NCBI RefSeq assembly: GCF_017696015.1
Contig: NZ_JAAORL010000001.1
Location: 620,001 to 684,000, forward strand
Direction of reading: 5' to 3'
DNA length: 64,000 nt
DNA from: Prochlorococcus marinus CUG1415
GTDB taxonomy: Bacteria > Cyanobacteriota > Cyanobacteriia > PCC-6307 > Cyanobiaceae
Shown here: one piece after another, positions 9,285 to 13,273 of the stretch
Layout of the letters: every line of letters begins with the position of its first letter
Position numbering within the stretch: position 1 is the first letter of the stretch
The notes under the pieces: generated by a model
Told to the model about the DNA's origin: nothing
What the model saw: the letters and a program-made list of their open reading frames with translations, nothing else
The model's database searches: none
Made by a program: the position numbers and the translations under genes

Positions 9285-9365
9285 TGTTAATAAAAGAAAG
9301 CAAATTCTAGACTATCGAGATTTCTTGAATAATTCATTTAAAATTTAACTATAGTATTTTCTATT

Positions 9366-10241
9366 ATGTTTAATAATTATTCAATTACAAACGTAAGAAG
9401 ATTAGTTGATAAATATTTCTCTCTTCAGTGGTGTAGAGATAACTTTGTAGTTCCACTAAGTATAAAGAAAGAAAGTTCATCTGAAATACAAACAGTTATA
9501 ATCGCAATAGCTAACTATTCTTATCTAGGGACAATATCTGAACCAATAAAGGAGAGACTAAACCAATCAGGACAAAAATGCTTTTTTGTAGAAAAGACTC
9601 AAGATGAGATTCAAGAAATTCTGGATAAAGCCTCTGAGGAAAATTTTATAAGTGATGAAGTTAACGAAAGCATATTTTTTGAGGATGATTATTTATCTGA
9701 ATCTATTAGAACAACTTCTGATAAAAAAGTAGAAGAGTTTATTTTTGAATTTGATGAAGATATAGTTCTAGATATGGGACGTAAAATTTTAGATCTAGTG
9801 CCTGAGATGATGGAAAGTAAAATAAAGAAAGCTGTAGGATTTGTTTTGATCTATTCGAAATACGAAAAAGTTTCTGACATTTATATAGATCCTAAGGAGG
9901 ATAGCTATAAGATTCGTCTCAGAAAAGAGGGTGTTTCCCAGAAGTTTATTTCAATGCCTAAGGAATCAGGAATAAAATTTTTGGCATGTTTAAAAGAGAT
10001 GTCAAATATGGATGTTACTGAAAAAGGAAAAAACCAGGATGGAAAGATACTAAGAAAGTTCGATGGGCAGAAACTAGAATTAAGTTGTAATTCCAAGCCT
10101 GGCTTAAATGGAGAATCAATGGCTCTAAAATTTTTAAATAGTGATTCTTCAACTTTGAATTTGGACAATCTAATTCATATAGAAACTGTCTTAAACGATT
10201 TTGCTAAAAACTCTATTAAAATAGGAAATTTGAATTTATAA
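9366..10241 (+). pseudogene. Truncated PilB-like protein without ATPase core
   Basis: A 291-residue paralog of the PilB proteins at 10840 and 26948. It keeps the N-terminal MshEN-like domain (VRRLVDKYFSLQWCRDN, IAIANYSYLGTI), an acidic linker and the N2 domain that precedes the ATPase (VSDIYIDPKED, DGKILRKFDGQKLEL). It ends just after the point where the others continue into HIEKVR...GPTGSGKS, so Walker A, the Asp box, Walker B and the zinc-binding cysteines are all missing. Several normally conserved residues have changed. It cannot be a motor; it could be a dead copy or a regulator competing for partners. Confidence 0.75.
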
Positions 10242-10322
10242 AAAGGGAAGACAAAACAATCTTTTTATTACTAGCTCAAACTGAACCTTTTAAGAAAAGA
10301 GTTTTAAGTTTTAAGAAACTGT
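10242..10322. other. Older spacer remnant before the repeat junction
   Basis: This 80-base stretch (CTAGCTCAAACTGAACC and onward) is a diverged version of the spacer that follows the small membrane gene at 12885-12950 (CTAGCTAAGACTGAACT). It ends in CTTAAA, which also occurs where the near-identical repeat begins, so the junction looks like recombination through microhomology. Confidence 0.5.
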
Positions 10323-10323
10323 C

Positions 10324-10503
10324 TTAAATTTTAAAACTATAGTTTTGCTTTTATTAGCAATATGGGGTTTCTGTCGAGCATACTATTTTGCTTTTTATGT
10401 TATTCAGCATTATTTTGACCCTAATTATAAATTCTCTGGGTTAATAGATTTTGCCAAATATTCTTTAAGAAAAGGAAGATCAAATTTAAAAAATAGGAGC
10501 TAA
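10324..10503 (+). pseudogene. 3' fragment of small membrane protein gene
   Basis: In-frame copy of the C-terminal 59 codons of the 91-residue protein encoded at 12597-12872. It differs by two amino acids (Val to Phe in HYVDP, Lys to Asn near the end). There is no start codon or upstream part, so it is a duplication by-product. Confidence 0.85.
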
Positions 10504-10614
10504 CAAAATTACATTTAAAGACTAGCTAAGACTGAACTTTGTAAAAAATGAATATCAGCTTTACGAAAACATCTTAAAAATAAAAATATATTATAAATCT
10601 ATTTATTCAAAGTA

Positions 10615-10669
10615 CGGAGGGGGTGGGATTCGAACCCACGGTGCCCTTGCAGACACGCTAGTTTTCAAG
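10615..10669 (-). pseudogene. Partial tRNA-Ser(UGA), 3' half
   Basis: Copy of the anticodon-loop-to-discriminator half of the intact tRNA at 12984-13070, with two base changes. The 5' half (D arm and 5' acceptor strand) is absent; instead an unrelated structured 113-base insert begins at the anticodon loop. Partial tRNA copies of this kind mark recombinase-mediated integration at tRNA genes. Confidence 0.88.
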
Positions 10670-10791
10670 CCTGAATATAACTGAATAGCACATGTGGATC
10701 TGTTTTCGTGAAAACGATGACCGTTCCTCTTATTACTAGGTTTTGGTTGCACTAATAATTACTAAATGACTGCAACCCCTAGACTAGCGTG
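10654..10791. other. Multi-stem structured element at the tRNA remnant
   Basis: A 9-bp perfect stem pairs CACGCTAGT (10654-10662, the tRNA anticodon arm) with ACTAGCGTG (10783-10791). Enclosed are a 6-bp hairpin GTTTTC/GAAAAC (10702-10715) and a 12-bp hairpin, CTAGG plus GGTTGCA pairing with TGCAACC plus CCTAG (10736-10782), which abuts the outer stem directly. One of the substitutions that separates this tRNA copy from the intact one lengthens the outer stem. It could be an RNA, an attachment site or an intron remnant. Confidence 0.5.
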
Positions 10792-10839
10792 CTTTAAATA
10801 AACAATTGATTTAAAATTCAATATAAATACAAGTAAAGA

Positions 10840-12597
10840 ATGGCATCAAGATATTATTCTGCAAGTGTAAGGAAATTAGTAGATAAGTATTTCTCTATTC
10901 AATGGTGCAGAGATAATTTAGTTGTACCTTTATATGAGGAAACTTCTTTACCAATCAGTAAAGGTGTTATAAAAATTGCTATTGCTAATTATTCATATTT
11001 AGGGACGATCGCCTCTCCGATAAAAGAGAGATTAAATCAATCTGGTTATAAATGTGAATTTGTAGAAAAATCACAGGAGGAAATTCAAGAAATTCTTGAT
11101 TTGGCTTCTGAAGAAAGATTTATAAGTGGTGATTCACTAGAAATCTCTCAAATTGATGAAGATTCCGTTTTGGAAGCCATAGTTGATGTTTCTGAGTCAG
11201 AGGATACTTTTGAATTCGAATTTGATGAAGATGAAGATGAAGATGAAGATGAAGATGAAGATGAAGATGAAGATGAAGATGAAGATGAAGATGAAGATGA
11301 AGATGAAGATGAAGACAAGGATAAAGAATCCAGAAGTGATACTTATGAAGATTATCTAGAGGAACAAATTATAGATTTAGAGATAGAGATGTCTTTTAGT
11401 AAAATTCAAAAGGCGGCAGGAATGATATTAATAAATTCCAGAAAAAATAACGTATCTGATATTCATATAGAGCCAAGAGAAGAAGGTTACAAAATCAGAG
11501 TTAGGAAAGATGGCGTAATGCAAAAATTCATGTCTATGTCGAGAAAGCCAGGAATACAGTTGGTTGCATGTTTAAAAAATATGGCAATGATGGATATTGC
11601 TGAAAGAAGAGCTAGTCAAGACGGGAAGATCCTAAGAAAACTTGAAGGTAATAGAATGGAAATTCGCTGTTCAACAGTTCCAGGAAAATATGGGGAATCT
11701 ATGGTTCTAAGAATGTTAAACAGTGATGCATCAGTATTAAATTTAGACACATTAATACATATTGAAAAAGTCAGAAATGATTTTAGAAAGATAATGAATT
11801 CAATAAATGGGACTGTAATTGTCTCAGGGCCAACAGGTTCTGGAAAGTCAACTACTCTTGCTGCTGCTTTAAGGGAAAAGGATAATGGTTATTCTAAAAT
11901 ACTTACTGCCGAAGATCCCATTGAGTACGACTTGGGAGGAGATATCCAACAAGTTCAGGTAAATAGAGCTAAAGGACAGACATTTGCTGCTATTCTAAGA
12001 ACTTTCTTAAGGCATGATCCTGACGTAATACTTATTGGTGAGACTAGAGATCCTGAAACAGCAGAATCATCTATGGATGCAGCAGAAACTGGTCATTTAG
12101 TGTTTACTACACTTCATGCAAATTCATCAACTAGCTCACTAACTAGATTACTTGATATGGATGTACCAAAATATAAATTAAATGCAAGCGTAAGAGGAGT
12201 ATTAGCTCAAAGATTACTTAGAAAAGTCTGCACAGGATGCGGTATAAAAAGACCGATTTCTGAAAATGAAGCGATTGAATTTAATATTCCAGATAATACT
12301 CCAATAATGTATGCTAACTTTCTATCTTCAGAAGAAAAATCAAACCGTAAAAAAGAGAATTCTCTTTGTCCCATATGTCAGGGTTCTGGATATAAAGGTA
12401 GAGTTGGGGTATATGAACTCCTTCTTCTTGAAAGAAATATTCAAAATGGAATTTCAAGTGGACTTAATGAAAAAGAAATTGAGCAGTTAGCTGTTAATGA
12501 AAATTCAATGCTTACACTTACTCAATATGGCCTAGAGTTAGTTAAGGATCATTTGACTACTCTTTCTGAAGTAATAAGAGTATGTAAGGAAGATTAA
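10840..12597 (+). CDS. PilB/GspE-type pilus extension ATPase, second copy
   Basis: A 585-residue hexameric secretion ATPase. The N-terminal MshEN-like domain spans residues 1-95. An Asp-Glu tract occupies about 129-160, followed by the N2 domain, Walker A GPTGSGKSTT at about 330, the Asp box, Walker B (DPDVILIGETRD), the His box (GHLVFTTLHAN) and two CxxC pairs (CTGC near 464, CPIC near 510) for zinc. All motor residues are present. It lies 14 kb from the main pilus cluster, next to tRNA-Ser, and overlaps the following membrane gene by one base (TAATG). It may be an alternative extension motor. Confidence 0.88.
   Translation: MASRYYSASVRKLVDKYFSIQWCRDNLVVPLYEETSLPISKGVIKIAIANYSYLGTIASPIKERLNQSGYKCEFVEKSQEEIQEILDLASEERFISGDSLEISQIDEDSVLEAIVDVSESEDTFEFEFDEDEDEDEDEDEDEDEDEDEDEDEDEDEDEDKDKESRSDTYEDYLEEQIIDLEIEMSFSKIQKAAGMILINSRKNNVSDIHIEPREEGYKIRVRKDGVMQKFMSMSRKPGIQLVACLKNMAMMDIAERRASQDGKILRKLEGNRMEIRCSTVPGKYGESMVLRMLNSDASVLNLDTLIHIEKVRNDFRKIMNSINGTVIVSGPTGSGKSTTLAAALREKDNGYSKILTAEDPIEYDLGGDIQQVQVNRAKGQTFAAILRTFLRHDPDVILIGETRDPETAESSMDAAETGHLVFTTLHANSSTSSLTRLLDMDVPKYKLNASVRGVLAQRLLRKVCTGCGIKRPISENEAIEFNIPDNTPIMYANFLSSEEKSNRKKENSLCPICQGSGYKGRVGVYELLLLERNIQNGISSGLNEKEIEQLAVNENSMLTLTQYGLELVKDHLTTLSEVIRVCKED
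11224..11313 (+). repeat. Hexanucleotide microsatellite (GATGAA)x15
   Basis: Fifteen perfect GATGAA units inside the PilB paralog, encoding alternating Asp-Glu in the linker between the N-terminal domain and the ATPase. The six-base period cannot shift the frame, so slippage changes only the length of the acidic linker. Confidence 0.97.
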
Positions 12598-12872
12598 TGG
12601 GAGATATAAAGAAAGTTTGGCTACTTTATCTAAAAGGATTTTTGCTTTTTCTAACTGGTTTTATATCTTCATTACTCTTAGTTTTATTAAACTTAAATTT
12701 TAAAACTATAGTTTTGCTTTTATTAGCAATATGGGGTTTCTGTCGAGCATACTATTTTGCTTTTTATGTTATTCAGCATTATGTTGACCCTAATTATAAA
12801 TTCTCTGGGTTAATAGATTTTGCCAAATATTCTTTAAGAAAAGGAAGATCAAATTTAAAAAAGAGGAGCTAA
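12597..12872 (+). CDS. Small two-helix membrane protein linked to PilB paralog
   Basis: 91 residues with two transmembrane helices (GFLLFLTGFISSLLLVLLNL and TIVLLLLAIWGFCRAYYFAFYVI) and a basic C-terminal tail. Its ATG overlaps the PilB stop codon (TAATG), so translation is coupled. It has no recognised family and no homolog beside the main pilB, but a nearly identical 3' fragment lies at 10324-10503. It may anchor or tune the alternative ATPase. Confidence 0.7.
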   Translation: MGDIKKVWLLYLKGFLLFLTGFISSLLLVLLNLNFKTIVLLLLAIWGFCRAYYFAFYVIQHYVDPNYKFSGLIDFAKYSLRKGRSNLKKRS

Positions 12873-13038
12873 CAAAATTACATTTAAAGACTAGCTAAGA
12901 CTGAACTTTGTAAAAAATGAATATCAGCTTTACGAAAACATCTTAAAAATAAAAATATATTATAAATCTATTTATTCAAAGTACGGAGGGGGTGGGATTC
13001 GAACCCACGGTACCCTTGCAGATACGCTAGTTTTCAAG
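12692..13038 (+). repeat. Direct repeat copy 2
   Basis: The intact counterpart of 10323-10669: gene 3' end, spacer and tRNA-Ser 3' half. Four substitutions separate the copies, whereas the adjacent PilB paralogs are strongly diverged, so this tail was duplicated or converted much more recently than the gene heads. Confidence 0.92.
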
Positions 13039-13070
13039 ACTAGAGCCTTAAACCACTCGACCACCCCTCC
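12984..13070 (-). tRNA. tRNA-Ser (anticodon UGA)
   Basis: The minus strand folds as a complete class II tRNA: acceptor GGAGGGG/CCCCTCC, anticodon stem CTAGT/ACTAG enclosing loop CTTGAAA (anticodon TGA), a long variable arm, a GGTTCGAATCC T arm and discriminator G. CCA is not encoded. Length 87, usual for tRNA-Ser. It is the intact target beside a partial duplicate. Confidence 0.96.
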
Positions 13071-13273
13071 AGGTGAAAATATTTAATTTTCAGATTTAAT
13101 TATATCAGTCCCTGCTATTTAACCGGTAAATAAAAAATATTTTTCTTCAACAAATTTTTAAAATTAAATTTTTTGTGAAATTATTTCCAGAAATTGGCAA
13201 CAAATTGGCAACACTATGGAGCTATAACAGTTTTATGATATTTAGAGTCTTAATAAGAAGTTAGTTATAGTAG
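13071..13273. other. Intergenic region with 11-bp tandem repeat
   Basis: An AT-rich spacer upstream of tRNA-Ser. The only distinct feature is two adjacent perfect copies of AAATTGGCAAC at 13191-13201 and 13202-13212. No gene is seen. Tandem iterons next to a tRNA integration target might be recombinase arm-binding sites, but this is speculative. Confidence 0.35.

Follow-up and report, generated by a model that had tools for sequence, protein, structure and literature searches.

Gene cassettes of integrons lack an integrase and accumulate beside a single site. According to the available sections of PMC5704250 and PMC3146451, cis-mobilizable elements (CIMEs) have att sites at both ends, no integrase and tandem accretion at an RNA gene; the ssrA islands of Dehalococcoides, which lack an integrase, are an example. 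For Prochlorococcus, the available sections of PMC10872708 describe tycheposons, elements of 4 to 200 kb with a tyrosine recombinase that insert at tRNA genes and carry cargo. T7-like cyanophages carry integrases yet behave as lytic phages (PMC8776855). In the available sections of that study, they integrate at tRNA genes, with int and attP reported to be needed for S-TIP37; 11 sites are reported, all of them tRNA-Leu, and no stable integration or lysogens. The term tRNA-Ser is absent from those sections, and a literature search, in the parts of the sources it returned, found no description of tRNA-Ser as a target of T7-like cyanophages.

We analyzed a 64,000-nucleotide stretch of the Prochlorococcus marinus CUG1415 chromosome (the window; Table 1), in which an earlier note, made from the letters alone, had pointed to a compact fold of several stems at 10654-10791, running out of the anticodon arm of a partial tRNA-Ser. 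Our results support one of the readings that the note had offered, an attachment site. The DNA that continues the tRNA remnant is the DNA that stands between the tRNA core and the RNA polymerase (RNAP) gene in the T7-like cyanophage contig L219, and this homology argues strongly for identifying the stretch as a T7-like cyanophage attachment site. We consider it rather likely that it is the P' arm of such a site, that the site targets tRNA-Ser(UGA), and that the arm bounds a small element with a PilB-like gene that was inserted by the phage integrase.

Table 1. Features of the attachment-site region in the window
Feature	Positions	Strand	Remarks
PilB-like gene, copy A (older, truncated)	9366-10241	+	between P'-arm end (9300-9323) and P arm (10280-10328)
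Direct repeat, 347 nt	10323-10669		repeats 12692-13038; 343/347 identical
P arm left of core, second copy	10518-10582		local alignment to L219 P arm, 0/1000 dinucleotide shuffles
tRNA-Ser(UGA) 3' half, core O	10615-10669	-	55 letters identical to the L219 core
Outer helix, 5' side	10654-10662		anticodon stem of tRNA core
P' arm	10670-10789		ungapped to L219 over 120 nt, 0/1000 shuffles; L230-L235 and L241 about 77%
Central hairpin	10696-10727	+	degenerate copy of phage rho-independent terminator downstream of int
6-bp hairpin	10702-10715		lies in the central hairpin; pairs in 42.6% of cells (9 sequences)
12-bp bulged hairpin	10736-10782		5-bp base kept in 9/9 sequences; 7-bp top not (47.6% of cells)
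Outer helix, 3' side	10783-10791		end of P' arm; motif CTAGACTAGCG before RNAP in phage contigs
PilB-like gene, copy B (type II/IV secretion ATPase; cargo)	10840-12597	+	PF00437, 340 bits
91-aa ORF (cargo)	12597-12872	+	no Pfam match
P arm, 3' side of intact tRNA	12887-12951		0/1000 shuffles against L219 P arm
Intact tRNA-Ser(UGA), target gene; P-O-B' junction (attR type)	12983-13071	-	L039 layout identical

The remnant is identical to the intact tRNA-Ser(UGA) apart from positions 10643 and 10654, and the identity runs as far as 10669, where the 7-nt anticodon loop ends. An identity that ends with the anticodon loop is the usual mark of a tyrosine-integrase crossover there. The earlier note had remarked that one base differing from the intact copy lengthens the outer stem. 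This base, at 10654, does add a pair, and it is also the common allele: among 77 distinct intact tRNA copies that fit a fixed pattern in the fetched loci, the alleles at 10643 and 10654 occur jointly in 61 and the other pair in 16. The note's reading that the DNA beyond the remnant is no tRNA 5' half agrees with our comparison of 10780-10800, in which 502 of 2000 shuffles scored equally high.

By blastn, window positions 10609-10789 match the region between the integrase (int) and RNAP genes of L219 at 82.3% over 181 nt, core included, and the match stops two bases short of 10791, where the earlier note had ended its fold. In L219, the integrase gene is followed by the P arm, and then come the tRNA-Ser 3' half, the P' arm and RNAP; the genes of L219 encode a regulator, a tyrosine integrase and, beyond the site, a T7-type RNAP (phrog_414), a ssDNA-binding protein, an endonuclease, a primase/helicase and a polymerase. 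The integrase shares 39.6% identity with the S-CBP1 enzyme and 36.0% with the P-SSP7 enzyme. As in the attP of the T7-like cyanophages P-SSP7 and S-TIP37, the site lies between int and RNAP genes, with a tRNA-derived core, a crossover in the host tRNA and, by eye, a hairpin between core and RNAP; the window is homologous on both sides of the core (each arm 0/1000 shuffles). Unlike in the reported sites, where the cores are tRNA-Leu, the core here comes from tRNA-Ser(UGA), and the site has become a fixed part of a chromosome, with cargo next to it.

The phage side of the homology consists of metagenomic contigs. An IMG/VR scan with the tRNA-Ser 3' half returned five of them: four hold an intact tRNA-Ser, three within tRNA arrays and one singly, and in the fifth, L219, the 3' half is directly continued by the window's element end. 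Thirteen IMG/VR loci have the L219 integrase or a relative; the tRNA-Ser site is present in 8 (L219 included), and RNAP directly follows int in the remaining 5. In INPHARED, the arms were found in no phage. All 50 of the 50 records that match the L219 site match its tRNA part only, and the same part accounts for the matches listed in two other searches (23 of 23 records listed in one, 30 of 33 in the other). Separately, IMG/VR contigs L216, L217 and L220 carry arrays of 8 to 9 tRNAs that include an intact tRNA-Ser(UGA), whose anticodon arm is the same as the attachment core.

Related junctions occur in other chromosomes of the genus. We searched 266 Prochlorococcus genomes, the source genome included, with the element-end DNA of L044, and 7 matched. 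Four have the element end: the window, G168 (L039), G104 (L044) and, partially, from about 10730 on, G132 (L038). The other three were set aside, as they gave short A+T-rich matches that we judged by eye to be chance, with no shared end. L039, which matches L219 at 93.5% over 153 nt, holds a 2.3-kb islet between a B-O-P' junction (5803) and a P-O-B' junction at tRNA-Ser(UGA). The islet contains a PilB-like ATPase gene and a small ORF, with no recognised phage gene, and has the P' arm at one end only and the P arm at the other only. Its ends, host flank-core-P' and P-core-tRNA 5' half, are the attL and attR of an insertion. L044 keeps the P' side alone, and other DNA precedes its intact tRNA. 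In the window itself, 10518-10789 has the full P arm-tRNA core-P' arm (P-O-P') layout, the junction that stands between tandem copies. The 347-nt direct repeat, which contains the 3' part of the 91-aa ORF, the P arm and the core, reads as the tail of a lost tandem copy. The flanks of PilB-like copy A also keep traces of the arms, since its P'-arm end and P arm were equaled in 4 and 2 of 1000 shuffles, respectively, against 700 and 312 for two control stretches. In G114, a 4.2-kb contig (L046) has copy A but no copy B, and copy A is followed there by its own decayed tRNA 3' half. Within copy B, window positions 11224-11317 encode a long Asp-Glu tract from GATGAA repeats. We also considered a regulatory motif common to pilB genes, CTAGACT[AG]NCG, and dropped it: among 20 pilB loci it occurred, besides the two window copies, only in L016, which is the L044 element.

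No integrase ORF was seen within the element, where the genes between the ends are the PilB-like gene and the 91-aa ORF, and a phage-type integrase was found in 0 of the 266 genomes at E 1e-20 in a search run without a positive control. As no integrase was seen in the element and no phage integrase was found in these genomes, the insertion is best explained by a phage that acted in trans. The PMC8776855 result of integration with no stable lysogens, as given in the available sections, fits such a phage. The element is best described as a probable phage-mobilised, integrase-less PilB-like element. Viral contigs gave neither a PilB-like gene nor a P'-arm/pilB junction pattern.

We infer the following course of events. 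A circular DNA carrying a P-O-P' site, in which the PilB-like ATPase gene and the 91-aa ORF take the place of the phage genes, would be excised and then inserted by the integrase of a helper phage, with crossing over within the tRNA-Ser anticodon loop. A new tRNA 3' half would come with the element and displace the old one, and the tRNA would therefore stay intact. In the simplest history, two PilB-like elements would have arrived in succession, the second in tandem, and a deletion between copies of a short repeat, CTTAAATTTTAAAA, common to the flank of copy A and the 91-aa ORF, would have left the P-O-P' junction.

A decayed prophage would share some of these features: a T7-like cyanophage at tRNA-Ser might have lost all its genes, and the PilB-like gene might have entered the gap later by recombination. 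Such a history would account for the presence of both att arms, and T7-like cyanophages do integrate at tRNAs according to the available sections of PMC8776855. Against it, no fragment of a phage gene was recognised between the arms. The cargo junctions lie near phage intergenic edges, after int and before RNAP; several genomes have the same cargo next to these arms; and remnants of arms are also found at copy A, which is another PilB-like gene. We consider this history unlikely and retain insertion by a phage integrase acting in trans.

As a kind of element, this is a variant of the T7-like cyanophage attP and of cis-mobilizable elements, both of which are already known. It resembles CIMEs in having att sites at both ends, as seen in L039, and no integrase or transfer genes among its two ORFs; it differs in being only 2.3 kb long and in having arms from the attP of a phage described as lytic, not from a decayed conjugative element. 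With tycheposons it shares the genus, insertion at a tRNA gene and the cargo role, but its size of 2.3 kb and the lack of an integrase ORF seen inside set it apart. The addition of integrase-less cassettes beside one site recalls integrons, except that here a tRNA core flanked by phage arms forms the site. A chromosomal P-O-P' junction and attL and attR sites with host-type cargo would be a lasting product of a T7-like cyanophage integrase, and such junctions would give this integrase a testable role in gene transfer. That the phage site stands beside a pilus-motor gene, where phage genes would otherwise follow, suggests that viruses of this kind leave durable marks in host chromosomes and that these marks carry genes. 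More broadly, and only tentatively, the element may belong to a phage-fed cassette system, in which cassettes without an integrase end in copies of a T7-like cyanophage attP and the integrase of a phage described as lytic might bring host genes into Prochlorococcus chromosomes, and from one chromosome to another, at tRNA-Ser.

The fold itself can be found where the earlier note had placed it. The outer helix joins 10654-10662 with 10783-10791 in 9 perfect pairs, the 6-bp hairpin joins 10702-10707 with 10710-10715, and the 12-bp bulged hairpin (10736-10740 with 10778-10782 and 10745-10751 with 10771-10777) abuts the outer helix as described. Folding of the stretch beats shuffles on both strands (RNA z -3.59 and -3.15), with 1 of 200 shuffles giving an equally good RNA fold, and comparably good folding was seen in 4 of 659 window stretches. 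Of 7435 9-mers with at least five G+C, 2 find their reverse complement no more than 220 nt away, a count that includes the outer helix.

The note had proposed that the fold marks a new structured RNA, an attachment site folded as single-stranded DNA or a miniature intron relic. The intron can be rejected, because the same DNA stands between int and RNAP in phages. We think it most improbable that the function of the stretch lies in its fold, as RNA or as single-stranded DNA. The L039 copy has a folding energy like that of the window copy (z -3.6 each), which speaks for such a function, but the L044 copy folds no better than shuffles (z -0.13). The four helices gave no covariation above shuffles in 9 distinct sequences (93 to 390 of 500), with a double-sided change in one pair only, and a three-sequence test of the whole structure gave the same outcome (342/500). 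In each of the other two chromosomal copies, L039 and L044, the outer helix has two mismatches. In favor of a fold, all 6 distinct phage rows keep the inner 7 pairs of this helix unchanged, and they also keep the 5-bp helix beside it, which is present in 9 of 9 sequences with changes on one side only. As these 7 and 5 pairs are kept without a double-sided change, a DNA motif and a stem look the same here; their conservation speaks for conserved DNA and neither clearly for nor against pairing. By eye, P-SSP7 has CTAGCG at the equivalent place, and its tRNA-Leu core is unable to pair with it. Of the single-stranded DNA proposal, the attachment site stands, by homology to the L219 site, and the folding is not supported, given the covariation results.

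Only one hairpin covaries in the 9 sequences, and its pairing (10696-10708 with 10715-10727) differs from that in the earlier note. None of 500 shuffles reached its share of cells paired and 3 of 500 reached its score, while 460 of 500 reached its number of pairs with a double change and a slide by +3 also pairs 65% of cells. In L219 this central hairpin is a terminator with 13 pairs and the T-rich tail TTATTTTATT. The window copy is degenerate, with no terminator called, and by eye a hairpin seems present at the equivalent place in the six named T7-like cyanophages that we fetched. With its sole covarying hairpin a terminator in phage and no Rfam match above the cut-off, a new structured RNA is not supported. 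In the Rfam search, only the intact tRNA was above the gathering cut-off. Matches to RF04351 and tmRNA were below it; that of the remnant to RF04351 reached 32.5 of 68 bits, and the intact tRNA matches RF04351 too.

The tRNA-Ser(UGA) gene is also the target of other mobile DNA. Loci L101-L120 and L151-L166 hold short integrase-less cassettes with one or two small genes and shared ends, inserted successively at the anticodon loop, with two in tandem in G246 (L102). The first 20 of these regions were fetched because a pattern search showed at least two tRNA-Ser 3' halves in a row. The 35 measurable cassettes have a median length of 1119 bp, and 32 are between 0.5 and 1.65 kb. Their longest ORF is on the tRNA's strand in 31, on the opposite strand in 2 and absent in 2; ATG ORFs of at least 60 aa on the tRNA's strand number one in 18 cassettes, two in 12, five in 2 and none in 3. 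The left ends share a common 76-nt profile. Against the 266 genomes it matched 142 at E 0.01, most of these matches being weak and short; at E 1e-5 it found 39 ends in 35 genomes. The profile had been built without 18 of these ends, and each of the 18 comes after a tRNA-Ser 3' half or what is left of one (0/500 shuffles each), in L151 no more than the last 13 bases. Direct repeats about 11 bp apart occur at both cassette ends. They resemble each other more within a cassette than between cassettes (mean score 28.9 versus 18.4; 0/5000 permutations, n = 33), a difference to which shared descent contributes, and a cassette's own right end was the best match in 14 of 33. In 14 of 39 elements, the 130 nt next to the tRNA end include a terminator-like hairpin; the same is true of 4 of 390 stretches from the interior.

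The ends of this separate family lie at, or a few bases from, the same insertion point as the window element. The arms might be DNA of a host element, a small tRNA-Ser cassette or a relative of tycheposons, that phages acquired, with a cellular integrase acting, such as that of the family found on the 5' side of the tRNA. The shared insertion point would agree with this, as would the divergently transcribed tyrosine integrase of that diverse family, which adjoins tRNA-Ser(UGA) in 29 of the 30 best-scoring loci. When we tried the window element as a member of the cassette family, however, the cassette model R1 gave no match at the window end and the profile in register matched weakly, with 2% of window positions scoring as high; it is the phage site that the arms match, and they do so from end to end. 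A cellular origin of this kind is therefore very unlikely in our view, and a phage attachment site is the reading we keep. The R1 arms were absent from viral contigs in a search with two exact patterns, and the 5'-side integrase had no relative there.

This integrase family (L178:10804-12000 and L186-L215) is diverse, with proteins of about 400 aa and a weak PF00589 match. R249, K274, R342 and Y374 are invariant in 20 of 20 rows, and H365 is present in at least 90%, with N in L207; we take these five to be the catalytic residues. By eye, tandem arm-like repeats stand ahead of the gene. A link between integrase and cassettes through co-occurrence was tried and not upheld: 5 genomes belong both to the 30 that hold the best integrase loci and to the 35 whose R1 ends reach E <= 1e-5, and with about 4 expected this is no enrichment. 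Similar arm-like repeats without an integrase are found in L105:3299-3500, L110:10787-10987, L152, L155 and L160, where the intact tRNA is preceded, about 166 bp upstream, by another tRNA-Ser 5' half, perhaps a stub left after loss of an integrase element. At the same tRNA, L110:1539-10731 (G144) holds a 9.2-kb element, far larger than the other cassettes, with what appear by eye to be an ABC-transporter-like ORF and a repeat-rich ORF. Outside the window, the source chromosome has a 389-aa open frame for a tyrosine recombinase (G000:C1:497774-498856), which is of about the same length in most genomes among the matches listed and is seemingly core.
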